Positions 12,002-28,660 of a DNA stretch of 64,000 nt are shown one piece after another. Position 1 is the first letter of the stretch, and each line of letters opens with the position of its first letter. The notes under the pieces are model-generated. The model ran no database searches. It worked only from the letters and a program-made list of their open reading frames with translations, and was not told the origin of the DNA. The position numbers were made by a program, and so were the translations under genes. The DNA lies in NCBI GenBank assembly GCA_937872985.1, contig CALMUW010000018.1:1-64000 (forward strand). Reading direction: 5' to 3'. The DNA comes from an uncultured Alphaproteobacteria bacterium. Its GTDB lineage: Bacteria > Pseudomonadota > Alphaproteobacteria > Rhizobiales > Aestuariivirgaceae.

Positions 12002-12091
12002 GGAGAGGTGGCAGAGTGGTCGATCGCGCCGCACTCGAAATGCGGAGTACGGGTGACCGTACCGGGGGTTCGAATCCCTCCCTCTCCGCCA
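12002..12091 (+). tRNA. tRNA-Ser (anticodon CGA)
   Basis: 90 nt including the encoded CCA. The acceptor GGAGAGG pairs with CCTCTCC. The anticodon loop CTCGAAA (anticodon CGA) is closed by CCGCA/TGCGG. A long class II variable arm (TACGGGTGACCGTA) and the T-loop GTTCGAATC are present. Its 3' end is the integration target of the adjacent island, and the integration regenerates an intact tRNA. Confidence 0.96.
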
Positions 12092-12093
12092 CT
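12072..12093 (+). other. attL: tRNA-derived attachment repeat
   Basis: Spans the T-arm 3' side and acceptor end of tRNA-Ser plus CCA and two further bases. It begins GAATCCCTCC and ends CGCCACT. Identical to 27455-27476; the base immediately before differs (C here, A there), which marks the edge of identity. Confidence 0.9.
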
Positions 12094-12235: not shown

Positions 12236-12255
12236 TTTTGGTCAGGAGTCTCTTC

Positions 12256-13473
12256 ATGAGCCGATCAATTCACCGGCTGACGGCAAAGCAGGCTGCCGCA
12301 TTTCGAGAGCCAGGTCGATATAGCGACGGCGGCAATCTCTACCTTTCGATCCAACCTGGCGGTGCACGGCGCTGGGTCTTCATGTATCGGCAAAACGGAA
12401 AGCAGCGGGAGATGATGCTTGGCTCCGCGGATGTAAGCACAGGTCGGTCTCTCGCGGAGGCCCGGCAATTGGCCGCCGATGCAAGGTCTTGTCTGAAGAA
12501 TGGCCGCGACCCGATAGAAGAGCGAAAAAGGGCGCAGCTAACCAAGGGTGCTAGCCGCACCTTTGGTGAGTATGTCAAATCCTACATGGAGAGGATGTCG
12601 GGCAACTGGCGGAGCGAAATAAGCGAAGCCCAGTGGAAAATGACCCTTACCGAGTACTGCAAACCGCTGTCATCTATCGCCATTGATCAGGTTGATGTTC
12701 CAGCAGTGCTCAAGTGCCTGCAACCAATTTGGTCTACGAAACCTGAAACCGCACGTAGGCTCCGGGGTAGAATTGAGAGGGTCTTGGCGGCGGCCAAGGC
12801 CGAGGGATTGCGGTCAGGAGAAAATCCCGCCGCATGGAAGGGTAACCTAGAGGATCTTCTCCCGAAACAAGACCCACTCAAGCGCAAACACCATGGGGCG
12901 ATGAGTTTCAACCTCCTGCCCGCATTCCTACAGCTACTTCGGGCCAGACAATCGACCGCGGCGCTGGCCCTCGAATTCGCCATCCTCACGGCGACCCGAA
13001 CCAGCGAGGTCCTGAAGGCGGATTGGGCAGAGTTCGATTTGAAGGGCAAGACGTGGACAATACCTCGCGCGCGGACCAAAACCGGAAAGGAATATCGTAT
13101 TCCCCTCGCAGACCCCGCACTCCAGATACTTGAGAAGCTCAAGCAGATAGGGGAGGTGGGTTACGTTTTCCCCGGTCAGCAGCCCAAGTCGCCCCTCAGC
13201 AACATGGCAATGCTGCAACTCCTGAAAAGGATGGGGCAGACCGAGGTCACCACCCATGGTTTTCGGTCTACTTTCAGGGACTGGGGTTCCGAGACCACGC
13301 ACTACCCGAACGAAGTTCTGGAGATGGCACTTGGCCACCGCATTCGGGACAAGGCGGAGGAAGCCTACAGGCGGGGTGATCTCTTCGAGAAGCGGCGCAG
13401 GCTGACGGACGACTGGGCCGCCTACTGCAATCAGGTGCCCACCGCCAACGTGGTCAACTTCCGGAAGCGCTGA
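12256..13473 (+). CDS. Tyrosine-recombinase integrase (P4 type)
   Basis: 405 aa. The N-terminal domain (LTAKQAAAFREPGRYSDGGN, LYLSIQPGGARRWVF) is the DUF4102-type arm-binding domain of tRNA-targeting integrases. Catalytic residues are visible: R248 (TATRTSEVL), K275, H334-x-x-R337 (HGFRSTFRDW), H361 (ALGHRI) and Y371 (EEAYRRGD). I chose ATG 12256 because CAGGAG sits 8 bp upstream; an in-frame TTG at 12238 is less likely. It lies 164 bp from the tRNA and reads into the island. Confidence 0.95.
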   Translation: MSRSIHRLTAKQAAAFREPGRYSDGGNLYLSIQPGGARRWVFMYRQNGKQREMMLGSADVSTGRSLAEARQLAADARSCLKNGRDPIEERKRAQLTKGASRTFGEYVKSYMERMSGNWRSEISEAQWKMTLTEYCKPLSSIAIDQVDVPAVLKCLQPIWSTKPETARRLRGRIERVLAAAKAEGLRSGENPAAWKGNLEDLLPKQDPLKRKHHGAMSFNLLPAFLQLLRARQSTAALALEFAILTATRTSEVLKADWAEFDLKGKTWTIPRARTKTGKEYRIPLADPALQILEKLKQIGEVGYVFPGQQPKSPLSNMAMLQLLKRMGQTEVTTHGFRSTFRDWGSETTHYPNEVLEMALGHRIRDKAEEAYRRGDLFEKRRRLTDDWAAYCNQVPTANVVNFRKR

Positions 13474-15518: not shown

Positions 15519-17651
15519 ATGTTAGCAAGGCAATCTCATGGGTTCGCCATGATCGCTGATCACATGCAAGGGCTTGAGAAGTTCGAATCTGGCCTTTGGA
15601 AGATCGCCGACAATCTGCGGGCCAACTCCAATCTGGCGTCGAACGAGTATTTCATTCCCATCATGGGCCTGATTTTCCTGCGCCACGCTACGAACCGATT
15701 CTATGAGGCGCAGGCCGCCATCGAAGCCGACAAGAAGGCGGGCAAGATGCCGCACCGCCCGCTTGTGGAAGCCGATTTCACCCGCCGCCGCGCGTTGAAC
15801 CTGCCGGAGGCGGCGCGGTTCGATGTGATCCTCAAGACCCCCAAGGACGGCAATCTCGGCGCGGCGCTTACCGGTGCGATGGAGGCAATTGAAGCGGCCT
15901 TCCCCCCGCTCGCGGGCCAGTTGCCGAAGGATTACGGGCGCTTCGAGGGCAGCGTCCTTGAGGAAATGATGCGCATGTTCGATTCCGAGGGCCTGCGCAG
16001 CGCCTCGGGCGATGTGTTCGGTCGCATCTATGAATACTTCCTCGCCGAGTTCTCGAAGCAGGGCGCGCATGATGGCGGCGAGTTCTTCACGCCGCCTTCG
16101 ATCGTGCAAACCATCGTCAACGTGATCGAGCCGGATCACGGCGTGATCCTCGATCCGGCCTGCGGCTCGGGCGGCATGTTCGTGCAGTCGAGCCACTTCA
16201 TCGAGGATGCGGGCCAGGACACGATGAAGCGCGTGACCTTCTATGGCCATGAGAAGAATGAGACGACCGCCAAGCTGGCGCAGATCAATCTCGCGGTGCA
16301 TGGCCTGCAAGGCACGATCCGGGCCGGAAATGAAGCCATCACCTATTACAAGGACCCGCACGAGCTTGTCGGCAAGTGCAACTTCGTGATGGCCAATCCG
16401 CCCTTCAACGTGGACGAGGTGGACGCCGAAAAGGTGAAAGGCGACAAGCGCCTGCCGTTCGGCTTGCCGGGTGTCAACAAGGGCAAGAAGGTCTCGAACG
16501 CCAACTATCTCTGGATGTCGTATTTCTACAGCTACCTGAACGACAAGGGCCGGGCGGGCGTGGTGATGTCCTCGCAGGCGTCCAGCGCGGGCCGGGATGA
16601 AGCCACCGTGCGCCAGAAGCTGGTCGAGACCGGCGCCGTCGATGTGATGATCGATATTCGCGGCAACTTCTTCTACACGCGCACGGTGCCCTGCCAGCTC
16701 TGGTTCTTCGACCGGACGAAGGAGAAGGACGATGCGCGGCGCGACCATGTGCTGATGCTCGATGCGCGGCAGATTTTCCGCAAAATCTCGCGCTCAGTCT
16801 GCGATTTCTCGCGCGAACAGCAGAAGAACATTGCCGCCATCATCTGGCTCTATCGCGGGCAGCAGGATCGCTTCCTGAAGCTGGTCGAAAGCTATCTGAC
16901 CGAAGCCGTGGCGCTGGGCGCACAGGCGCAAAAGCCCCTGGAGGTTTACGAGGAGGCGCTGGGCAAGCTTTCCGATCTGCTAGAGCCCTTCGCCAAGCTG
17001 AAGCGCAAGGACGATCCGTTGGCGGGGCCGTGGGATGAACTCACCAGCGCGCAGGCGACGTTGTCGGCGGATATCGAAGCCTTCGGCAAGGAGGCGGCGG
17101 ATCAGGGGAAGGCGTGGGCCAATGCGGCGCGGGACAATGCCGGGCTGAATGCGGCACGGGGGGCATTCCACCCGCTGGCCGATCGCTGCCGGGACCTGAC
17201 CAAGCAGATCGACCTTGCCGCGAAGCTTTCAGGCCGGGTGATCGACATTGCGGTGAAGGACTTGGCGGCGCGCGATGCTGACGCCTGGAACAATGCCGAG
17301 GTGAACCGGGCGCGCAAGGCCCTGGGCGAGGCGCGGGCGGCGGTGGTGGAGGCGCTGCGGCAGGCACGCTATTTCGTGAAGCAGGCAGACTGGTTGCAAG
17401 AGCGTTTCCCAGACGCGAGTTTACGCGACGTCGAGGGGCTGGTGAAGCGCGTCGATCGCGCCACCATCGCTGCGCATGACTGGAGCCTGACGCCGGGCCG
17501 CTATGTCGGCGTTGCGCCGGAGGAGATGGACGAGGATTTCGATTTCGAGGAGGCGTTGCGGGCAATTCATATCGACCTGAAGGGGCTGAACGAGGAAGCG
17601 GCAGAACTGGCGGCGCGGATTGCCAAGAACTTCGAGGAGTTTGGGGCGTGA
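15519..17651 (+). CDS. hsdM: Type I restriction-modification system, methyltransferase subunit
   Basis: Modification subunit: transfers methyl to N6 of adenine within the site chosen by HsdS. The N-terminal helical domain (LEKFESGLWKIADNLRANSNLASNEYF) is followed by SAM motif I LDPACGSGGMFVQ and catalytic motif IV NPPF. The last ~250 residues form a long charged helical region rich in Ala/Arg/Asp, giving 710 aa, longer than EcoKI-type HsdM. ATG 15519 is the first start; ATG 15549 or 15564 are possible. The stop overlaps the GTG of hsdS. Confidence 0.94.
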   Translation: MLARQSHGFAMIADHMQGLEKFESGLWKIADNLRANSNLASNEYFIPIMGLIFLRHATNRFYEAQAAIEADKKAGKMPHRPLVEADFTRRRALNLPEAARFDVILKTPKDGNLGAALTGAMEAIEAAFPPLAGQLPKDYGRFEGSVLEEMMRMFDSEGLRSASGDVFGRIYEYFLAEFSKQGAHDGGEFFTPPSIVQTIVNVIEPDHGVILDPACGSGGMFVQSSHFIEDAGQDTMKRVTFYGHEKNETTAKLAQINLAVHGLQGTIRAGNEAITYYKDPHELVGKCNFVMANPPFNVDEVDAEKVKGDKRLPFGLPGVNKGKKVSNANYLWMSYFYSYLNDKGRAGVVMSSQASSAGRDEATVRQKLVETGAVDVMIDIRGNFFYTRTVPCQLWFFDRTKEKDDARRDHVLMLDARQIFRKISRSVCDFSREQQKNIAAIIWLYRGQQDRFLKLVESYLTEAVALGAQAQKPLEVYEEALGKLSDLLEPFAKLKRKDDPLAGPWDELTSAQATLSADIEAFGKEAADQGKAWANAARDNAGLNAARGAFHPLADRCRDLTKQIDLAAKLSGRVIDIAVKDLAARDADAWNNAEVNRARKALGEARAAVVEALRQARYFVKQADWLQERFPDASLRDVEGLVKRVDRATIAAHDWSLTPGRYVGVAPEEMDEDFDFEEALRAIHIDLKGLNEEAAELAARIAKNFEEFGA

Positions 17652-18859
17652 GTTGGCCAACACTTCCGATTAGCCAAGTGTGTTCGCACGTAGTCGATTG
17701 CGTGAATCGAACAGCACCAATTGTTGACTATCAAACGCCATACAAGATGCTTCGAACAACAAATGTTCGCGGTGGCTTTGTGGATGCAGAAAACGTCCGC
17801 TATGTAACACTTGAAACCTATGAGCGCTGGACGAGGCGTTTGGTTCCTGAACGCGGTGATGTCTTCTTAACGCGGGAAGCGCCGTTAGGCGATGTTGGGC
17901 GATTAACCTCCGATGACAAGGTCTTTTTGGGTCAGCGCTTGTTTCACTACAGGGCAGATCCCGAAAAGATGGACGGGAGATTTCTTGCCTATGCTCTTCA
18001 AAGCACCGCCGTCCAGGGCTGGATTAGGGGCGCGGGAATGGGGGCAACCGTTGAACACGCCAGAGTAGGTGACTTCCACAAGATTCCTGTTCCTGTGCCG
18101 CCGAAGGAAGCGCAAACAAAAATTGGCGACATCCTCTCCGCCTACGACGACCTGATCGGGAACAACCGGCGGCGGATTGCCTTGCTGGAGGAGGCGGCGC
18201 GGATGCTCTACCGCGAGTGGTTCGTCCACTTCCGCTTCCCCGGTCACGAACACGTCAAGATCATCGACGGCCTGCCCGAGGGGTGGGAACGGCTATGCGC
18301 GTCGGATGCGTTCGAGGTCAACCCAAGAATGCCGCGTGATGATGACGGCACAATAACTTATGTGCCGATGGCCGCATTGTCGGAAGTGGGGATGGTTGTC
18401 GATCTGACGCCATTTGAGAAGCGGCAAGCAACAACTAGCGTGCGTTTTCGAAACGGTGACACTCTTTTCGCACGGATCACACCGTGCCTTGAGAATGGAA
18501 AGACGGGGTTCGTACAATTCCTCGCGGATGATGAGGTCGCATGTGGTTCTACGGAGTTCATCATTCTCAGAGGGCGAACGGTCAGCAACTTCTTTGTATA
18601 TTTGACTGCGCGCGAGCCGGGCTTCAGGGAGAATGCCGTCAGAAGCATGATCGGATCATCGGGTCGCCAACGGGTACAACCGAGTTGCTTTGACCGATAC
18701 TTCGTAGCTGTTCCGCCCGATCTCCTTCGAACGCTTTTTGATGACGCAGTCGGTGGAATGTTCAAACAGATTGCAAATCTCGACAATCAGAACCGCAAAC
18801 TTGCCCAAGCTCGCGACCTGCTCCTGCCTCGCCTCATGAACGGGGAGATCGCCGTATGA
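17648..18859 (+). CDS. hsdS: Type I restriction-modification system, specificity subunit
   Basis: 403 aa DNA-recognition subunit with two target-recognition domains (about residues 1-150 and 215-365). Each is followed by a conserved helical spacer: IGDILSAYDDLIGNNRRRIALLEEAARMLYREWF and ...LDNQNRKLAQARDLLLPRLMNGEI. It starts with GTG overlapping the hsdM stop. The first recognition domain is AT-richer than hsdM, as expected for a domain exchanged between systems. The stop overlaps the next gene as ATGA. Confidence 0.94.
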   Translation: MSWPTLPISQVCSHVVDCVNRTAPIVDYQTPYKMLRTTNVRGGFVDAENVRYVTLETYERWTRRLVPERGDVFLTREAPLGDVGRLTSDDKVFLGQRLFHYRADPEKMDGRFLAYALQSTAVQGWIRGAGMGATVEHARVGDFHKIPVPVPPKEAQTKIGDILSAYDDLIGNNRRRIALLEEAARMLYREWFVHFRFPGHEHVKIIDGLPEGWERLCASDAFEVNPRMPRDDDGTITYVPMAALSEVGMVVDLTPFEKRQATTSVRFRNGDTLFARITPCLENGKTGFVQFLADDEVACGSTEFIILRGRTVSNFFVYLTAREPGFRENAVRSMIGSSGRQRVQPSCFDRYFVAVPPDLLRTLFDDAVGGMFKQIANLDNQNRKLAQARDLLLPRLMNGEIAV

Positions 18860-20148
18860 ATACCAAGCCCGGGGCGTCACTCTCGAAGCACATGGATGAA
18901 GCACTGCTGCGTGAAATTTCGAGAGCCTATCTGCTGCCCTTTTTTTCCGGCGCCAGCATCGACTCTGCTTCGGTTTCTTCTACATCGTCTGATAGCACAG
19001 TCGCTTTCGTAGATCCGCAGACCATTGGCTTCAAGGTAAACCGTGCGGATAACTACCGGCTGCAGTTTCGCCGAGATCAGCCATTCGCCCAGAAGACTGA
19101 CCCTGCACGTGAAACAAGGGTTATTGAAGCCTATGTGTCTGTGCTGGAGCGGATGTCAGATGAGCTAAAGGGACCGCTTAAGGCTGACCTTCTCTCGACT
19201 TTTCAGCGCCGTGTGGTTGCAGAAGCTGCAGCAGAATCAGGAGGTGGGGCGAGGCTCTTAGAGGTGATCGATCAAATGGCACGTTGGGCCACGCGGCTTT
19301 ACGAAGGTTCACCCATCGCCAGTGCGATCGGGATTGACCCAGAAATCTCAGGCACCAAGGCATTGCCACTCTCAGATATCGCCAAGGAAGACTTCTTCGC
19401 GGTTCTTTCAAACGGCTTCGATACGATGCTGACGCTATCGAAGCATCTCAATTTTGCTGGTCATATTGTCCTTGATGCGACGCCATCTGCAAAAGGATAT
19501 TGCCCGTGGCGTCACTCGGCCATTGCGGCTTGGACATCGGGGGGTAAGGGTAGGGTGGCGGTTATCTTAAATAGGCTTGGCGAAATTCTCATCTTCCGTG
19601 ATGGTCAGCTTCTTTTCGCACGGCGAAGCGGCAACTGGCATTTTTTGACTCATTGGCCGATCATTCGCCAGATGGGCGTACCGAAAGATGAAGATATCCG
19701 AGAGGCGATTTACGAAACCGCTCTGGATGCTTCCTTCGCACGTACTGGCGCTTGTCTTGGAGTGATCGCTGCAGGCAGCACGAAACTGGCTGAAGCCATG
19801 ATCGCGAACACGGACTTGCTGTCAGAGGGCGATTCGGACAAGGCTAAAGCCATTGCGCGCATCGTAAACGGGAAGAAATTTCACGAGCTTGATCGAACCT
19901 TGCGCCAAGAACTGGCCGCGATTGATGGAGCAACAGTAATCGACCACGAAGGCAGCGTTATAGCCGTGGGCGCGATCTTGAAGATTAAGGGTGGAAGTAC
20001 TGGGGGGGGCAGAACTGCCGCTGCCAAACAGCTTGCGACTTTGGGCCTCGGAGTGAAAATCTCCCAGGATGGTGGAATATCGGGCTATCGGCGGAAAACC
20101 TCGGGAGAACCGACCGGAGTACGTACGGCCTTTAAGGTGATGCTGTGA
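18856..20148 (+). CDS. DAC-like (diadenylate cyclase-related) protein encoded within the type I RM operon
   Basis: 430 aa. Residues ~1-285 are an unrecognised, possibly sensory region. Residues ~293-412 read like a DisA/CdaA nucleotidyltransferase domain: FARTGACLGVIAAG (start of the fold), LAAIDGATVIDHEGSVIAVGAIL with the DGA motif at 357-359, and GGRTAAAKQLATLGLGVKIS, then QDGGISGY. In true cyclases the last block begins RHRAA; here it is RTAAA (R386), so the second catalytic motif is altered and activity is uncertain. The ATG overlaps the hsdS stop and hsdR begins 13 bp after the end, so it is part of the operon. Sensor-plus-DAC proteins (DACNV/DACNG-type) have been predicted in bacterial conflict systems, which fits. 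Confidence 0.6.
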   Translation: MNTKPGASLSKHMDEALLREISRAYLLPFFSGASIDSASVSSTSSDSTVAFVDPQTIGFKVNRADNYRLQFRRDQPFAQKTDPARETRVIEAYVSVLERMSDELKGPLKADLLSTFQRRVVAEAAAESGGGARLLEVIDQMARWATRLYEGSPIASAIGIDPEISGTKALPLSDIAKEDFFAVLSNGFDTMLTLSKHLNFAGHIVLDATPSAKGYCPWRHSAIAAWTSGGKGRVAVILNRLGEILIFRDGQLLFARRSGNWHFLTHWPIIRQMGVPKDEDIREAIYETALDASFARTGACLGVIAAGSTKLAEAMIANTDLLSEGDSDKAKAIARIVNGKKFHELDRTLRQELAAIDGATVIDHEGSVIAVGAILKIKGGSTGGGRTAAAKQLATLGLGVKISQDGGISGYRRKTSGEPTGVRTAFKVML

Positions 20149-20161
20149 GTTTGGGATTGCT

Positions 20162-22111
20162 ATGGCGGTGACGGGCATCAACAGCGAGGACCGGCTGGTG
20201 CAGGCGACCTTCGCCGCGCATCTGAAGGACACGCTCGGCTGGGACACCGTCTACGCCTTCAACGAGGAGACCTTTGGGCCGGGTGGCACCCTAGGTCGCA
20301 AGGACACGACGGAAGCGGTGCTCACCCGCGACCTGCGCGAGGCACTTGAACGCCTGAACCCCGACTTGCCGCCATCCGCCATAGCCGATGCGTTGCGGGC
20401 GCTCACCCTGCATGATTTCAGCCGTTCGATGGTGCAGCACAATCAGGATTTCGCGCGGTCGATCCGCAATGGCGTGCCGGCTTCCTGGCGGGACGCCAAC
20501 GGCCAGCGTCGCGACGCCCGCGCCCGCGTGATCGACTTCGACAACAAGCCTGGCGCAAACCGCTTTCTCGCTGTGCGCGAGTTGAAACTCACCGGCCTGC
20601 GCACGCCGAACTACAACCGCCGCGCAGATCTCGTCTGCTTCGTCAATGGCCTGCCACTGGTCTTCATCGAGCTGAAGGCGGTCTACAAGAATATCCGCGC
20701 CGGGTTCGACGGCAATCTGCGCGACTACATGGACGAGAATGTCATCGCCCATGCCTTCCACCACAACGCCTTCCTAATCGTCTCGAATGGAGACCGTGCC
20801 CGCTACGGCTCGATTACCAGCGAATGGGATCATTTCTACGAGTGGAAGCGCCAGGACGAAGCCGACAAGGGCAAGGTGGATGCCGAGGCGCTGCTCGACG
20901 GCATGCTGGCGCATGACCGACTGCTCGACATCATCGAGAACTTCATCCTGTTTGACGAGAGCAAGGCTGGCAAAACCCGCAAGGTGGTGGCGCGCAACCA
21001 TCAGGTTCTCGGCGTCAACCGTGCCGTGGCGTCTGTCGCGCGTCAGGAGGAATTGAAGCGGGAGTTTCCACCCGAGAAGCGGCTTCAGCACCGCGTGATC
21101 GAATTGCCGCTGGAAAAGCGCGCCATCGCGGACCGGAAGCGGATTGCCGAGGCGAAAGAAGCGGGCCTGCCCGCGTCGGCGTCGTTCATTCCTCAAGGGC
21201 CGGTCAGCATCATCGAGCGGGCGCACCCGGAACTCGGGCGACTCGGCGTGTTCTGGCACACTCAAGGTTCCGGCAAGAGCTATTCCATGGCCTTCTTCGC
21301 TGAGAAGGTGCGTCGCAAGGTTGAGGGCAATTTTACCTTCCTGCTGATGACTGACAGACAGGACCTCGATAGCCAGATTTACAAAACCTTCGTGGGAACG
21401 GGCATTGCCGATGATGCCACGCCGCGTGCGGCTTCCGGCGCAGACCTCGAAAATCTGCTGAAGGAGAACCATCGCTACATCTTCAGCCTGATCCACAAGT
21501 TCAACCAGGATGTGGACCCGAAAAAACCCTATAGCGAGCGCGACGACATCATCGTGATTTCGGACGAGGCGCACCGGACCCAATCGGGCAGGCTCGCACG
21601 CAATATGCGCGTAGCGCTGCCGAACGCCGCGTTCATCGGCTTCACCGGCACGCCGCTGTTCAAGCAGGACGAGATCACCAAGCGCATCTTCGGCGGCTAT
21701 GTCTCGCAATACAATTTCAAGCGTTCCGAGGAAGATGGCGCAACCGTCAAGCTCGTCTATGAAAATCGAGGGGGGAAGCTCGGGCTGGCGCATGCCGACC
21801 TGAACGAGCGGATGGCCGAAAAGATCGAGCAGGCCGATCTCGACCCGGATCAGTCGGCGTTGCTCGATAAGCTGCTCGGTAAGGATTACGAGGTGGTCAC
21901 GGCTGACGAACGCCTCGACAAGATCGCGGCGGATTTCGTCGAGCACTGCGCGACGCGGTGGGAATCCGGCAAGTCGCTGTTCGTCTGTATCGACAAGATT
22001 ACCTGTGCGCGGATGCACCAGCGGATAATGCCGCGCTGGCGGGACAAAGGGGGCGGGGCGCGGGGGGGGTCCCAGGGCCATCGCGCCGCAGCGGCGGGGT
22101 CGGAAGCTTAA
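20162..22111 (+). CDS. hsdR: Type I restriction enzyme HsdR, N-terminal part (nuclease and first motor domain)
   Basis: 649 codons up to the stop. The N-terminal PD-(D/E)xK nuclease domain is visible as RADLVCFVNGLPLVFIELK. The first RecA-like helicase domain follows: Walker A HTQGSGKSYSM, a motif Ia-like LLMTDRQDLDSQIY, DEAD-type SDEAHRTQSG and motif III FIGFTGTPLF. After CARMHQRIMPRWRDK the reading becomes low-complexity (GGGARGGSQGHRAAAAGSEA) and then stops. If real, this product lacks motor domain 2 and the HsdM/S-binding C-terminus and should not restrict DNA. Confidence 0.9.
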   Translation: MAVTGINSEDRLVQATFAAHLKDTLGWDTVYAFNEETFGPGGTLGRKDTTEAVLTRDLREALERLNPDLPPSAIADALRALTLHDFSRSMVQHNQDFARSIRNGVPASWRDANGQRRDARARVIDFDNKPGANRFLAVRELKLTGLRTPNYNRRADLVCFVNGLPLVFIELKAVYKNIRAGFDGNLRDYMDENVIAHAFHHNAFLIVSNGDRARYGSITSEWDHFYEWKRQDEADKGKVDAEALLDGMLAHDRLLDIIENFILFDESKAGKTRKVVARNHQVLGVNRAVASVARQEELKREFPPEKRLQHRVIELPLEKRAIADRKRIAEAKEAGLPASASFIPQGPVSIIERAHPELGRLGVFWHTQGSGKSYSMAFFAEKVRRKVEGNFTFLLMTDRQDLDSQIYKTFVGTGIADDATPRAASGADLENLLKENHRYIFSLIHKFNQDVDPKKPYSERDDIIVISDEAHRTQSGRLARNMRVALPNAAFIGFTGTPLFKQDEITKRIFGGYVSQYNFKRSEEDGATVKLVYENRGGKLGLAHADLNERMAEKIEQADLDPDQSALLDKLLGKDYEVVTADERLDKIAADFVEHCATRWESGKSLFVCIDKITCARMHQRIMPRWRDKGGGARGGSQGHRAAAAGSEA

Positions 22112-23587
22112 ACCCGACGCCCCGCGCTGCCTGAGCAGGCCGACAAGCTGGAAAAGCAGGCGCAATGGCTCGATGAAACCATCGTCGAAATCATCATCAG
22201 CGAAGCCCAGAACGAGGTCGCTGATTTCAGGAAGTGGGACTTCGATATCATCCCTCACCGTGAGCGGATGAAGAAGGGGTTCGAGGTGGAGGGCGGCGAA
22301 CGCGTCGATGTCGAGACTGCTTTCAAGAACCCAAAACACCCGTTCCGCGTGGCAATCGTCTGCGCCATGTGGCTGACCGGCTTTGACGTGGAATGCCTGT
22401 CGACGCTTTACATCGATAAGCCGATGAAGGCGCATACGCTGATGCAGGCCATAGCGAGGGCGAACCGCGTCTATCCCGGTAAGGATCACGGTCTGATCGT
22501 CGATTATAACGGGATGCTGGCAAGTCTTCGGGCAGCGCTGGCGCAGTACGCACTCGACGAGGATGACGCAAGCGGTGAGGATATAGTCGCGCCGATCGAG
22601 GAGCGGGTACAGGCGCTCCTCGAAGCGATGGAGGCCGTCGAGGCCCATTTGCGGGGCCTTGGCTTTGATCCGAAGAACTTACTCGGCGCGAAGGGCTTTG
22701 CACGGATCATGGGCCTCGCCGACGCGGTGGAGGCAGTCTATTCAAGCGACGAGACCAAACGACGTTTTGAGATCATGGCCCGCGAGGTGTTTAGCCGGTT
22801 CAAAGCTCTGTTGGTTGAGCCGAGCGCGTGGGCCTTCGCCGAGCGGCACGACAACATCGAAGCGATCTACAAGAAGCTGACCGAACGACGCGATACCGCG
22901 GATGTGACTGCCTTGCTCAAGGAATTGCACCGGATCGTCAACGAAACAATTCGCACCCAGGCGCCTGGTGAAGATCAGGCGGAAGGGCTGACCTTTGATC
23001 TCAGCAGGATTGATCTCGATAAGCTTCGTGACGAGTTCGCCAAGAAGGTGCGGCGCAAGGCCACCGTGCTTCAGGATATCCGCGATGTCGTCGAGCAGAA
23101 ACTCGCCGATATGCTGGCCCGCAATCCGATGCGGATGGATTACCAGGTGAAATATGAGGGCATCATCGCTGATTACAACAACGAGAAGGATCGCACGACC
23201 ATCGAGGAAACCTTCAATCGGCTCCTGGAGCTAGTGCAGAGCCTCGATGAGGAACAGGAGAGGGCCGCGCGCGAAAACCTTACCGACGAAGAATTGGCGA
23301 TGTTCGATCTATTGAAGCGGGAGGACCTGACCAAGACCGACCGCGAGCGCGTCAAGCAAGCAAGCCGGGATATGCTTGCCTCTATCAAGGCCCGCCTCGC
23401 GGAACTCGATCGTTTCTGGGAAAAGGAACAAACAAAGGGCGAGGTGGAAGCGTTCATCCTCGACGGGATCTTCATGAATTTGCCTTCGCCACCCTTCACG
23501 CCCGACGAAAAGAAATTGGTGGCTGAAAACGTATATGCTCACGTTTGGCAGCAAGCGATGAGCGGCGGCTTTGCGAGGATGACTTAG
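22112..23587 (+). CDS. hsdR: Type I restriction enzyme HsdR, C-terminal part
   Basis: In frame with the N-terminal part. The first in-frame ATG is at 22268, but homology clearly begins earlier ([29 protein letters not shown]). It contains motor domain 2 with [21 protein letters not shown] and [13 protein letters not shown]. The long helical C-terminal region that docks on the methyltransferase follows, ending [14 protein letters not shown]. No RBS is evident at 22268, so independent translation is unlikely. Confidence 0.85.
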
Positions 23588-23588
23588 G

Positions 23589-23681
23589 ATGGTTGTTTTC
23601 GCACGCCTTCGCCTGCTCGACGCCCTCCTGGCCGAAGCTCTCATGCCGTTGAATGACCGCGAAATGGAGGCGGCGAAATGA
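23589..23681 (+). CDS. 30-residue leader ORF
   Basis: MVVFARLRLLDALLAEALMPL..., 1 bp after the hsdR stop. It ends in AATGA, so its stop overlaps the ATG of the next gene. Half of it is an amphipathic Leu/Ala/Arg segment. It may be only a coupling leader, or a leftover of the hsdR 3' region. No homology is recognised. Confidence 0.35.
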   Translation: MVVFARLRLLDALLAEALMPLNDREMEAAK

Positions 23682-24673
23682 GTATGGAAGAAAGAGACCT
23701 CACAGTCGCCAGATTCATATCTCTTTTTGAGAAACTCAAGCTGGGAACAGGCGACAGTTCAGCGGATCTGGTCAAACAGGCAAGTGAAGATTCCAGCATT
23801 TTTGATCTCTGCATGAAGCTGGTTGCAGTCGCTGACGAGCTGAGTGAGGCAGAGCTTTTGATGCCGCAAGCTTACTTTAGAAATGCCAACCCAGCCTTCA
23901 TCAAATCCTGGCGTGATTTTGAAGAACGCTATCGGGAGCCGCTGCATAAAATCGCGATTATAAATCTATCCCGCAGCGAAGACGGCAGCGCTACTGTCTC
24001 CATACCACGTAGCGCTATAGGAGAAGAACAGTGGTGGAAGGTAGCTAACGCTACTGGGCAGATGTATCAGAGTGCTATGCTCAGTTATATGTTTCTCACT
24101 GGAGTGATGGGAGACGAGTTCCGCACTGCTTATCGAAAGTTCTTTGGTACGGATGCTCCTGAAGTCAGTGCCCGTGAGGTATGGGAAACGCTCATCGACA
24201 AGGTTGGGCTTGATGTTTGTGGCGCAATGAGGCGCCGTAAGTTGTTGCCCTTCACATACGTCTCGGAAAAAATCAGCAAAAGGGAGAGTTTGGGCAAGAC
24301 AATTGGTCTTTTGGCAAACTTAGAAGACGCTCAAAAAGCCTTTGTCTTTGGTGCCATACGGTCGGCCTTCGGTTTGATGCGTTCCGTATTGGAATCGGTA
24401 TTGCGGGATCACGCAGGTGCCGAGGGTAAGGACCTTGAAGACTTGCTTAAGAGTGCAAAGCAACGGGGAAAATTGCCGAAAGGTCAGAATCGGGACGCAC
24501 TCTATAGCCTGAAGAAGACGGCCAACGTGTTCTTGCATACCGTTAGAAGGGACGACACCCGCACAGACCCATTTACGTATGAATGGTTGATAAGAATGGA
24601 CGAGCAAGAACTGGAGAAACAATTCGTTAGGCTGTACGTGGAACTTCGCAGTTTTGTCGAGAGTGTGAGATGA
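23678..24673 (+). CDS. Island hypothetical protein with DUF4145-like C-terminus
   Basis: 331 aa. The C-terminal ~110 residues follow the DUF4145-type plan: helix with SAFGLMRSVLESVLRDHAG, EDLLKSAKQRGKLP, then LKKTANVFLH (comparable to the L-x-x-x-x-N-x-x-x-H block) and a final amphipathic helix. DUF4145 domains are frequent next to restriction genes, but their function is not known. The N-terminal ~200 residues are not recognised. GGAGG sits 6 bp before the start. The gene is clearly AT-rich relative to hsdR, suggesting a different origin. Confidence 0.55.
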   Translation: MSMEERDLTVARFISLFEKLKLGTGDSSADLVKQASEDSSIFDLCMKLVAVADELSEAELLMPQAYFRNANPAFIKSWRDFEERYREPLHKIAIINLSRSEDGSATVSIPRSAIGEEQWWKVANATGQMYQSAMLSYMFLTGVMGDEFRTAYRKFFGTDAPEVSAREVWETLIDKVGLDVCGAMRRRKLLPFTYVSEKISKRESLGKTIGLLANLEDAQKAFVFGAIRSAFGLMRSVLESVLRDHAGAEGKDLEDLLKSAKQRGKLPKGQNRDALYSLKKTANVFLHTVRRDDTRTDPFTYEWLIRMDEQELEKQFVRLYVELRSFVESVR

Positions 24674-24749: not shown

Positions 24750-25556
24750 ATGATCCGGGTTGCTGACATTTGGCCGATTGAGGCGCCAGAAAACTACAAG
24801 CTTCACTTCGCCCGCTGGAACCAGCAAAATCAGCCGCTCGAAGTCTGGGCGCGCGACAAGCGCGAATGGCAAGGCTGGCAGGAGTACCGACCAGCGCGCG
24901 ATGACTTCAATCGGCCATTCATCTTTTCGCTGATTCAGTTCTACCACGAGCCCGACATTTGGCTGTTCGGCGGCGTGTTCCGCGTGCTCGCCCGCCATGC
25001 CGATCGCTACGAGGTGGAACTCACCGCGGAAGGCAAGGGTTTTCTCGGGCGATTAAAGCTGCGATCCGCTTATCGCGAGCGCGCGACGCGGGTGAAGCTG
25101 GAGAACCACTATCCCGGTTTCGAGGTGCAGGAGATTTTGCGCGAGCCCTATTCCGGGCGGTCATTTCCGGGCTTCGAAGATATCGACCTGTCTTTCGAGG
25201 AGTTGGAAACGCTGGTGCGTAACGCTCGGCCAGACTGGCAGGCGGCGCTTTCCAGCGTGAAGGGTGTCTATCTGATATCCGACACTGCCACGGGCAAGCG
25301 TTACATCGGTTCGGCCTTTGGCAATCAGGGCATCTGGTCGCGTTGGCGCGACTATGCCGCCAGCGGTCACGGCGGAAACGTGGAACTTCGCGCCATCGTG
25401 AGCGATCCGACGCTGGACTATTGCCGCAAGTCATTTCGCTTCGCGCTGCTGGAAACGCGGCCAGCGCCGACACCTGACGAGGTGATTCTGGCCCGTGAGG
25501 CTTTTTGGAAACACATTCTGTTTACACGCGGCGAGCAGGGGTTGAACCGCAATTGA
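24750..25556 (+). CDS. GIY-YIG nuclease family protein
   Basis: 268 aa. The C-terminal domain shows GVY (172-174), YIG (185-187) in GKRYIGSAFGNQGIWSRW, and the candidate metal-binding glutamate E250 in AREAFWKHILFTR, the standard GIY-YIG set. The N-terminal ~160 residues are a separate domain seen beside many restriction loci (WARDKREWQGWQEYRP, FSLIQFYHEPDIWLFGGVFRV). It probably cleaves DNA, and the N-terminal part may recognise the target. Its stop overlaps the start of the next gene. Confidence 0.8.
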   Translation: MIRVADIWPIEAPENYKLHFARWNQQNQPLEVWARDKREWQGWQEYRPARDDFNRPFIFSLIQFYHEPDIWLFGGVFRVLARHADRYEVELTAEGKGFLGRLKLRSAYRERATRVKLENHYPGFEVQEILREPYSGRSFPGFEDIDLSFEELETLVRNARPDWQAALSSVKGVYLISDTATGKRYIGSAFGNQGIWSRWRDYAASGHGGNVELRAIVSDPTLDYCRKSFRFALLETRPAPTPDEVILAREAFWKHILFTRGEQGLNRN

Positions 25557-26611
25557 TGCAAGCCTTCATGCGTTACATTGGCATTGACTATTCGGGCGCG
25601 GGAACGCCGAACTCGAGCCTAAAGGGCTTGCGCGTCTATCTGGCCGAAGGCGAAGAGCCGCCTCTGGAAGTACTGCCGCCGCCGTCTGCGAAGAAGTATT
25701 GGACGCGACGTGGGATCGCCGAATGGCTGGTGGAGCGGCTGACCGAGGGCGTGCCGACGCTGGTGGGTATCGACCACGGATTTTCTTTCCCGCTGCGCTA
25801 CTTCGAAGTTCACGGTCTGTTGCCCGACTGGCCACGCTTTCTCGACGATTTACAGCGCCACTGGCCGACCGACGAAGATCACACCTGTGTCGATGGCGTC
25901 CGCGAGAGCTTTGCAGGGAATGGTGTGAAGCGCCTGGGCAACGCCCATTGGCGACGGTTGACCGAGGAATGGGCGGGCAGCGCGAAATCCGTATTCCACT
26001 TCGACGTTCCAGGGCAGGTAGCGAAATCCACCCATGCAGGAATTCCGTGGCTGCGCTTTATCCGCGAGCGCCTCGGGAAGCGTGTGCATTTTTGGCCGTT
26101 CGATGGCTGGGACATTCCGGCGGGCCTTTCGGCCATCGCCGAGGTCTATCCTGCCCTGTGGTCACGCGACTTCGCCCGCGAGGGCCGTACCGGCGACCAG
26201 CACGACGCCTTTAGCATAGCGGCCTCGTTGTGGCGTGCGGACCATGATGGCAGTCTTGTGAGGCTCCTCAACCCCAGTCTTTCTGCGTCCGACATTGGAA
26301 TTGCGAGTGTTGAAGGGTGGATCCTGGGCGTAGAGGAGGGCAAGAAAGGCAAAAAACGCTTAAGAGGCGACAAAAATGGAGGGGACCGCCATTTGGCCAG
26401 GAAGCATGCTCAGACCACCAGATTGGGCTATGTGAACAAGAACTTTCAAAGAGTCACCCGTCAGACTGACCAACCTGGAAATGATCACAGTCAGCGGGTC
26501 TATGTTCTAAATTGCGACAAATGTGGCCACGAGTATGGTGCCAATGGCTCAGATATCTGGCAAAGGCGCTGTCCTGTCTGCCAAAACGGAGCGAAAGGTT
26601 TGGACTACTGA
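25556..26611 (+). CDS. RNase H-like-fold protein with C-terminal zinc ribbon
   Basis: 351 aa from ATG 25556 (overlapping the previous stop; ATG 25568 also possible). It begins MRYIGIDYSGA, a strand plus Asp typical of RNase H-like folds, and continues with TLVGIDHGFSFPLRYFE and AKSVFHFDVPGQVAKSTHAGIPWLRF. Another conserved-looking acidic site is IAEVYPALWSRDF...DQHDAFSIAA. The last ~35 residues have a CxxC...CxxC zinc ribbon (CDKCGHEYGANG...RRCPVCQ). I recall both parts from uncharacterised proteins near defence genes. A nuclease or nuclease-partner role is inference. Confidence 0.65.
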   Translation: MQAFMRYIGIDYSGAGTPNSSLKGLRVYLAEGEEPPLEVLPPPSAKKYWTRRGIAEWLVERLTEGVPTLVGIDHGFSFPLRYFEVHGLLPDWPRFLDDLQRHWPTDEDHTCVDGVRESFAGNGVKRLGNAHWRRLTEEWAGSAKSVFHFDVPGQVAKSTHAGIPWLRFIRERLGKRVHFWPFDGWDIPAGLSAIAEVYPALWSRDFAREGRTGDQHDAFSIAASLWRADHDGSLVRLLNPSLSASDIGIASVEGWILGVEEGKKGKKRLRGDKNGGDRHLARKHAQTTRLGYVNKNFQRVTRQTDQPGNDHSQRVYVLNCDKCGHEYGANGSDIWQRRCPVCQNGAKGLDY

Positions 26612-26667: not shown

Positions 26668-27243
26668 TCACGAAAATCCGGACACGGCCCTGTCAAGTCG
26701 TTGACTCAGTTTGCCAGGCAGTTTCTGAGCAAAGACCTTTGCAAGCTCATGGTAGTACCAACGGGTGCCTTCAGCGCCGCCGCTGAAACGAGACCAGAGA
26801 CCATCACCCAATTCCAGGAAGTCCTGATGGATTGCCTCAGCGTTATGGACCTTGTCTGCCAAGGATACCAAAAGGGATGTCACCGGCTTGTTGGGCAATA
26901 TCGAGAGGTATTTCTCCTTGCGCATGCGCCAGGCAGGTTTTGGCTCTGTCCAGGCGTCCGTGCAGTCACTCACAATTTGAGCCACTGCTTCACCAAAACG
27001 TGCCCTTACGTCTGAGAGTCTCGCTGCGCCACCCTGGTCTTCCGCGGCGTCATGGAGAAGAGCAGCAATTGCCTGGTCTTCCGTGCCGCCATTTTCAATA
27101 ACCAAGGCAGAAACTGCCATGAGGTGTGAGAAATAGGGAATAGCGGTGCCCTTCCTCGTCTGGGCACTGTGGAGGGCGTGAGCGTACTTCAGGGCAGCCT
27201 CAAAGCGACCCGTCAAAGCTGGGGTGGGATATGGTTCTCTCAT
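26668..27243 (-). CDS. HD-domain phosphohydrolase, SpoT/MESH1-like
   Basis: 191 aa from the ATG at 27243 (preceded by GAGAGA; a TTG at 27270 would add 9 residues). Motifs of the ppGpp-hydrolase HD fold: KYAHALHSAQTRKGTAIPYFSH, ALLHDAAEDQGG (HD plus ED, as in HDvvEDT of SpoT) and VSLADKVHNAEAI. No synthetase domain, so it resembles a small alarmone hydrolase. Other nucleotide substrates are possible. It is the only minus-strand gene of the island and sits at its right end. Confidence 0.75.
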   Translation of the reverse strand: MREPYPTPALTGRFEAALKYAHALHSAQTRKGTAIPYFSHLMAVSALVIENGGTEDQAIAALLHDAAEDQGGAARLSDVRARFGEAVAQIVSDCTDAWTEPKPAWRMRKEKYLSILPNKPVTSLLVSLADKVHNAEAIHQDFLELGDGLWSRFSGGAEGTRWYYHELAKVFAQKLPGKLSQRLDRAVSGFS

Positions 27244-27378
27244 TTCTCTCTCATCGGGTATGCCGGACAATCAGTATTTCTTATTGCCACGGCTCCAAAT
27301 CCCCAAATGGCATCCGCAAAAATTGCTGATGTCGATCGACACAGTGTCCGCCCTAAAAGGCCCTCACCGTCTAGAATT

Positions 27379-27454: not shown

Positions 27455-27476
27455 GAATCCCTCCCTCTCCGCCACT
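27455..27476 (+). other. attR: distal copy of the tRNA-derived repeat
   Basis: 22 of 22 bases identical to 12072-12093. It reproduces the 3' end of tRNA-Ser without the rest of the tRNA. Confidence 0.9.
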
Positions 27477-27823: not shown

Positions 27824-28660
27824 ATGTCGAACGGGCCCTGGACAGATCAAGAGAACGACCTGATCGTCGCGGATTACTTCGCGATGCTGGCCGACGACGT
27901 CTCTGGTCGCCCCTACAACAAGGCCGAGCACCGGCGCGGGCTTCTGCCGCTGTTGAACGATCGGTCCGAGGGATCGGTCGAGTTCAAGCACCAGAACATC
28001 AGCGCCGGGCTGAAGGGTCTGGGTGAGGACTGGATCCCGGGCTACAAGCCTGCCTTCAATTTCCAGATGACGCTGGTAGATGCTGTGGCACGCTGGCTGG
28101 CGCTCAACCCGGCGTGGCTCAACCGCCATGCGGGTGCAGGAGCGCCGACTGGCCTGGCGGAGGCCCGGCCGATCTGGATCGGGCCGCCGCCCACGCTGTC
28201 GAACCAGCCGCCGCCGCAGGAGCTGGAGCAGATGCTGCACATCGCCCGCAAATTCGATGTCGCGGCGAGAGACGAGCGGAACCGCGCCCTCGGCCGCGCC
28301 GGTGAGGAGCGCGTCATGGCGCACGAACGTGCAGCCCTGAAATCAGCGGGCCGCGACGATCTTGCGCGCAAGGTCCGGTGGGTGTCGGAGGAGGATGGCG
28401 ACGGTGCCGGCTACGATATCGCCAGCTTCGCACCGGACGGTCGTCCGCGCCTGATCGAGGTTAAAACGACGAACGGCTGGGAACGCACACCCTTCCACAT
28501 CAGCCGCAACGAGCTGGCCGTGGCCGAGGAGCGGCGTTCGGAATGGTCCCTGTTCCGGCTCTGGAACTTCGCGCGCGAGCCAAAGGCGTTCGAGTTGCAC
28601 CCGCCGCTGGACGCGCATGTCTCGCTGACCGCGACGTCCTTTCAGGCGAGCTTTCATTGA
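27824..28660 (+). CDS. DUF3883 (restriction-nuclease-like) protein
   Basis: 278 aa. The C-terminal domain has GRAGEERVMAHERAAL, DGDGAGYDIASF, RLIEVKTTNG and FHISRNELAVAEE, the DUF3883 pattern with a PD-(D/E)xK-like D...ExK core. The N-terminal part (WTDQENDLIVADYFAML, EFKHQNISAGL) resembles a domain usually paired with DUF3883 in standalone accessory proteins. Role is probably in nucleic-acid processing or defence; not proven. It lies outside the att repeats, next to a recombinase relic, so it entered separately from the island. Confidence 0.75.
   Translation: MSNGPWTDQENDLIVADYFAMLADDVSGRPYNKAEHRRGLLPLLNDRSEGSVEFKHQNISAGLKGLGEDWIPGYKPAFNFQMTLVDAVARWLALNPAWLNRHAGAGAPTGLAEARPIWIGPPPTLSNQPPPQELEQMLHIARKFDVAARDERNRALGRAGEERVMAHERAALKSAGRDDLARKVRWVSEEDGDGAGYDIASFAPDGRPRLIEVKTTNGWERTPFHISRNELAVAEERRSEWSLFRLWNFAREPKAFELHPPLDAHVSLTATSFQASFH

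Follow-up and report, generated by a model that had tools for sequence, protein, structure and literature searches.

An undescribed family of predicted RNase H-like proteins behind unrelated defence genes, found next to the Uzume protein UzuA in an alphaproteobacterial genomic island

The catalogue entry for Uzume, which reportedly goes back to Millman et al. 2022, consists of a single gene, UzuA. WYL regulators of the BrxR/CapW type carry DNA-binding domains and stand upstream, with many unrelated defence systems. Two papers (PMC12926258, PMC10482375) include Uzume among the defence systems whose mechanism is unknown, and in the Bacillus cereus group it sits mostly on plasmids (PMC11811056). 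DUF429 (PF04250, COG2410/4328/4923) is a member of the RNase H-like superfamily that was placed in clade D together with RuvC and is reported to be unlikely to be mobile (PMC3985635). The family NF011066 (PRK14495) is a fusion of MobB with an unknown domain. In this study, we compared these systems with a gene pair found in a window of 64,000 nucleotides, the whole stretch of DNA analysed, from an uncultured alphaproteobacterium (contig CALMUW010000018.1). The first protein of the pair (P0001) is a full-length match to the UzuA profile of PADLOC. What sets the locus apart from Uzume as catalogued is that UzuA is followed by a second, probably co-translated gene, whose product (P0002) joins a predicted RNase H-like domain, hereafter RNH, to a zinc ribbon. 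The UzuA half is known; the interest lies in RNH, an undescribed family whose members stand promiscuously behind defence genes. The features of the locus are as follows.

12002..12091, + strand: tRNA-Ser(cga), the integration site of the island (ARAGORN)
12072..12093, + strand: attL, the 22-bp repeat GAATCCCTCCCTCTCCGCCACT at the tRNA-Ser 3' end (exact repeat)
12238..13473, + strand: tyrosine integrase of the P4/DUF4102 type, adjoining tRNA-Ser (ORF, typed by eye)
15519..17651, + strand: HsdM (Pfam N6_Mtase, 1.5e-69; PADLOC MTase_I, 4e-245)
17648..18859, + strand: HsdS (Pfam Methylase_S, 4e-11)
18856..20148, + strand: 430-aa protein within the RM cassette, between hsdS and hsdR (weak DisA-N (DAC) match, PF02457, E=0.0024, below cut-off)
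20162..23587, + strand: HsdR (TIGR00348), with an in-frame stop at 22109-22111, in two ORFs (20162-22111 and 22268-23587)
23678..24673, + strand: DUF4145 protein (PF13643, 3.6e-5)
24750..25556, + strand: UzuA (Uzume, P0001), a ~160-aa N-terminal region followed by a GIY-YIG nuclease domain at residues 171-268 (PADLOC, phrog, conserved residues)
25556..26611, + strand: RNH-ribbon protein P0002, 351 aa
25556..26341, + strand: RNH domain of P0002, residues 1-262, with a predicted RuvC-like fold (58-sequence alignment, model, VIA)
26342..26608, + strand: C-terminal zinc ribbon of P0002, residues 263-351
26668..27270, - strand: HD-domain protein, SpoT-like HD_4 (PF13328, 1.7e-20), the final gene ahead of attR
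27455..27476, + strand: attR, the second copy of the 22-bp repeat and right end of the island (exact repeat)

The locus is a tRNA-integrated genomic island of 15.4 kb, marked by tRNA-Ser(cga), an integrase ORF recognised by eye and a 22-bp att repeat whose two copies start at 12072 and 27455; the UzuA and RNH-ribbon genes lie inside it. A preliminary description had placed the pair directly downstream of restriction-modification (RM) genes, which is roughly right, although the DUF4145 gene intervenes between hsdR and the pair. In the adjoining type I RM cassette hsdR is broken by its in-frame stop, which may mean either a loss of restriction or a fault in the assembly at that point. Beyond attR, just outside the island, a NOV_C-domain protein (27824-28660) is a strong match to the PADLOC candidate PDC-S36 (2.5e-131).

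The reported overlap between the two genes is real: the TGA of UzuA (25554-25556) shares one base with the ATG of the RNH-ribbon gene at 25556, giving TGATG. An alternative upstream TTG start for the latter appears at 25505 in the ORF list; there is good support for a start at 25556, since the TGATG junction is identical in the UzuA-RNH relatives L081 and L101 and the genes are separated by 1 nt in L131. These three further genomes, in which protein identity to the window is 70-85% for UzuA and 68-78% for RNH, indicate that the pair is more than chance.

Judged by its sequence, the first protein, of 268 aa, is UzuA with an intact GIY-YIG core, and this half of the pair is therefore already known. 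The PADLOC UzuA profile PDLC03973 matches it over its full length (E=2.5e-50; residues 19-268 against 20-278 of 278). It also matches phrog_26160 (1.6e-37), and Pfam GIY-YIG scores below threshold (14.9 against 22.6 bits). In support of the assignment as a GIY-YIG protein, which the preliminary description had already made, the signature residues Y174, Y185, G187, R198, E250 and N268 are invariant in 11 relatives with 32% to 85% identity. The predicted structure of UzuA reached a pLDDT of 36.8 from four sequences. Weak PDB sequence matches for both UzuA and the RNH-ribbon protein were set aside as uninformative.

The second protein consists, as first read, of an RNase H-like domain, here a prediction, plus a CxxC...CxxC ribbon bearing CGHEYGANGSD, and RNH and ribbon are separable parts. 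RNH matches no Pfam family and no PADLOC model, and our literature search turned up no paper on it. The nearest profile is NF011066, whose C-terminal domain matches RNH residues 127-262 (E=6e-10), but RNH is without the MobB part and its 38.7 bits lie far below the family cut-off of 596. When species genomes were scanned with the RNH part, at least 458 relatives were found, the best 80 of which share 64-81% identity across the whole domain. RNH is a large undescribed family, present in no defence catalogue searched.

The fold of RNH is, on the predicted model, suggestive of a RuvC-like RNase H. The core of the model is confident, with pLDDT above 90 in most strands (blocks of 90-98), and the ribbon is poorly modelled. 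The best VIA alignments were to ISCro4/IS621 (IS110-type) recombinases, Cas12, Spt6/Tex, IscB, RuvC and MOC1, at Z 5-6.2; since Z values below 8 are beneath the level at which the tool is trustworthy, and Foldseek with the RNH model returned nothing at E<=0.001, we word this fold as suggestive only. The top Foldseek matches, to polymerases, were below significance and were left unused. Among 58 of these relatives, aligned over RNH, D11, D73, E196 and D214 never vary and D217 is conserved in >=90%. Acidic residues fall on strands 1 and 4, with two more, D214 and D217, where the C-terminal helix begins. RuvC has the pattern D-E-DxxD, which D11, D73 and D214 with D217 would mirror by order and by position and spacing in the model. 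RNH resembles DUF429 in its predicted RNase-H/RuvC-like topology, in being mostly single-domain and in the places of its acidic residues (strands 1 and 4, C-terminal helix), yet it is patchy, island-borne and defence-linked whereas DUF429 is unlikely to be mobile, and PF04250 gave no match to P0002 at E<=0.5.

The ribbon has a distribution of its own. It is fused to RNH in L133, L143 and L140 as well (in the last, the frame breaks there). For the four RNHs with a ribbon, the AU test (p=0.19) is compatible with one origin as well as with several. The CGHEYGANGSD ribbon is also found as a small, unannotated stand-alone ORF of ~69 aa (L074:5001-5195 and L075:404-598), once on Roseomonas plasmid p7, immediately ahead of a mobilization gene, and once on a replicon of Methylobacterium bullatum. 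On another contig, a CRISPR array with 15 repeats of 36 nt (L174:7215-8901) ends 29 bp ahead of a 5'-truncated RNH-ribbon gene, and upstream stand genes that by eye resemble cas2, cas4-cas1 and csx17.

RNH is rare overall and scattered among genomes. A full-length match to P0002 was absent from 100 related genomes, and besides the window's own copy RNH occurred in 4 of 337 sampled genomes of the class. A housekeeping distribution, which the preliminary description had named, together with rare adjacency, as the outcome that would count against it, was seen for neither UzuA nor RNH; RNH is patchy and island-borne, and a housekeeping origin was rejected on this pattern. Among viral sequences, RNH occurs on four IMG/VR contigs, but L164, one of the four, seems to be the contig that is also entered as a bacterial genome (L133). 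Phage and plasmid records yielded no full-length match, and a phage origin is not favoured. A scan of viral contigs likewise found no UzuA relatives.

Integration sites and recombinases recur near RNH. At seven loci the 3' end of a tRNA (Leu, Gly, Phe, Ser, Gly, Glu) points towards RNH from a distance of 85-432 nt, and in the divergent RNH L173 a tRNA-Met begins 9 nt past the RNH stop. At nine loci (L079, L080, L081, L082, L083, L086, L088, L110 and L116) a gene for a large serine recombinase (524-552 codons) starts 5 nt after RNH or overlaps it, and ends in or beside a tRNA-Gln(ctg) that is intact in eight. The genes upstream of RNH differ among these islands, with Mrr, HNH, UzuA and PDC-S37 among the cargo, whereas RNH and the large serine recombinase make up a conserved end; these islands may constitute a family of integrative elements, hitherto undescribed, that carry defence genes. 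Beside one of them, L080, no repeat of >=14 bp to the tRNA-Gln was present in ~66 kb.

To see what precedes RNH, we surveyed the neighbourhoods of the best 80 of the at least 458 relatives with gene calls from a simple script; many of these loci come from metagenome-assembled contigs whose species names are unreliable. At 28 loci RNH starts between -4 and +20 nt from the stop of a same-strand upstream ORF of >=120 aa. Half of these upstream genes (14 of 28) are restriction or anti-phage genes: UzuA three times, Mrr and HNH twice each, and HsdR, HsdS, DrmC, HmaC (HEPN-Swt1/DUF499), UvrD/NERD, PDC-S18 and PDC-S37 once each. Two more are YgjP metallopeptidase genes that themselves follow hsdR (L125 and L134), three are other identified genes, namely Mrp/NUBPL (L113), a generic methyltransferase (L112) and PRiA4_ORF3, and nine had weak matches at best. 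Type I RM genes resembling those of the window lie upstream on the same strand at 18 loci and downstream at one (p=2e-5), in similar amounts of sequence searched on the two sides (410 and 457 kb). The immediate upstream genes matched 196 PADLOC families at 1e-6 against 23 for 48 control genes lying over 3.5 kb downstream at the same loci, figures that count families rather than genes, the larger being inflated by related profiles, and the control is a modest one in that the downstream genes include a few defence-like matches. That RNH relatives stand behind many unrelated defence genes argues for a general companion of defence islands and against one half of a fixed two-gene system.

The preliminary description had gone further and proposed a two-protein nuclease module that could be an independent defence unit. 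Two nuclease-type proteins, probably co-translated, within a mobile defence island are what we find; the dedicated unit is not borne out. Were UzuA and RNH-ribbon such a module, one would recognise or nick and the other finish, both being needed, and the one-base overlap in the window, the retention of the pair at -1 or +1 spacing in L081, L101 and L131, and the presence of RNH with four of seven close UzuA relatives (>=63% identity, window included) are what this reading would predict. Against it, RNH is missing in the other three (L063, L072 and L073), and UzuA usually stands by itself: its relatives occur on 395 plasmid records, none of which carries a close RNH. Nor are the two families regularly adjacent: UzuA is immediately upstream in 3 of the 80 best RNH relatives, the rest following many different genes, and no RNH adjoined UzuA at nine genome and five plasmid UzuA loci fetched from outside the RNH set, a few of which were short contigs or partial matches. 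The AU test rejected a single clade for the UzuA-linked RNHs (p=0.0245), a group named by neighbour before the test, so the partnership has been made, lost or shuffled more than once. We therefore consider a dedicated module quite improbable.

The main rival to a helper nuclease puts RNH in the service of the mobile island, where it would be a RuvC-like resolvase or maintenance factor at the att-proximal end that aids integration, excision or cargo exchange, with defence genes as the usual cargo. The nine RNHs next to or overlapping a serine recombinase gene, the tRNAs close to RNH at the other loci and the nearness of the fold to IS110 recombinases and RuvC by VIA are all consistent with this role, and the position of RNH at the island end fits it equally well. 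However, the recombinases differ, being serine enzymes there and a tyrosine enzyme in the window, where the HD-domain gene rather than RNH is last before attR; there is no tRNA close to many of the copies from beta-, gamma- and deltaproteobacteria; and start/stop overlaps with many different upstream cargo genes would be left unexplained. On balance we regard an island role as unlikely, and as less probable still that RNH is a passive hitchhiker with an unrelated role of its own, piling up at tRNA hotspots. Partners that vary across the RNH tree and the occasional housekeeping neighbour would suit a hitchhiker, but the placement of RNH is strictly same-strand and downstream, often overlapping, with a strong bias toward restriction-type neighbours.

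The reading we prefer, to which we give about an even chance, is that the RNH family is a promiscuous accessory of mobile defence islands, and most likely a helper nuclease. In support of this, its partners are mutually unrelated, often with overlapping start and stop codons, and include RM types I and IV, DISARM DrmC, Hma, Uzume and others; close relatives behind housekeeping or generic genes (L113, L112) and the nine upstream genes with weak matches at best speak against it. The island in tRNA-Ser carries a type I RM cassette, followed by UzuA, the known front-line nuclease, and by a probably co-translated protein whose predicted RuvC-like RNH is joined to a terminal zinc ribbon. RNH would be a second, metal-dependent nuclease, translated together with whichever defence gene precedes it and perhaps in contact with UzuA here, and would process or further degrade nucleic acid cut or opened by the preceding front-line nuclease; the ribbon of the window's copy may add nucleic-acid binding. 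A broader version, in which RNH is a general-purpose helper nuclease that serves as an interchangeable downstream gene of operons and strengthens unrelated systems (restriction, DISARM, Hma, Uzume and perhaps CRISPR), is more tentative, and we think it somewhat unlikely. As a promiscuous companion across unrelated defence systems RNH resembles the BrxR/CapW-type regulators, but those lie upstream and have DNA-binding domains, whereas RNH lies downstream and has a predicted nuclease-like fold.

Catalogues of defence systems usually go by core genes. A recurrent nuclease-fold protein behind unrelated defence genes would represent either a shared layer of immunity or a hidden part of island movement, and a profile of the RNH family would reveal new defence genes just upstream of it.
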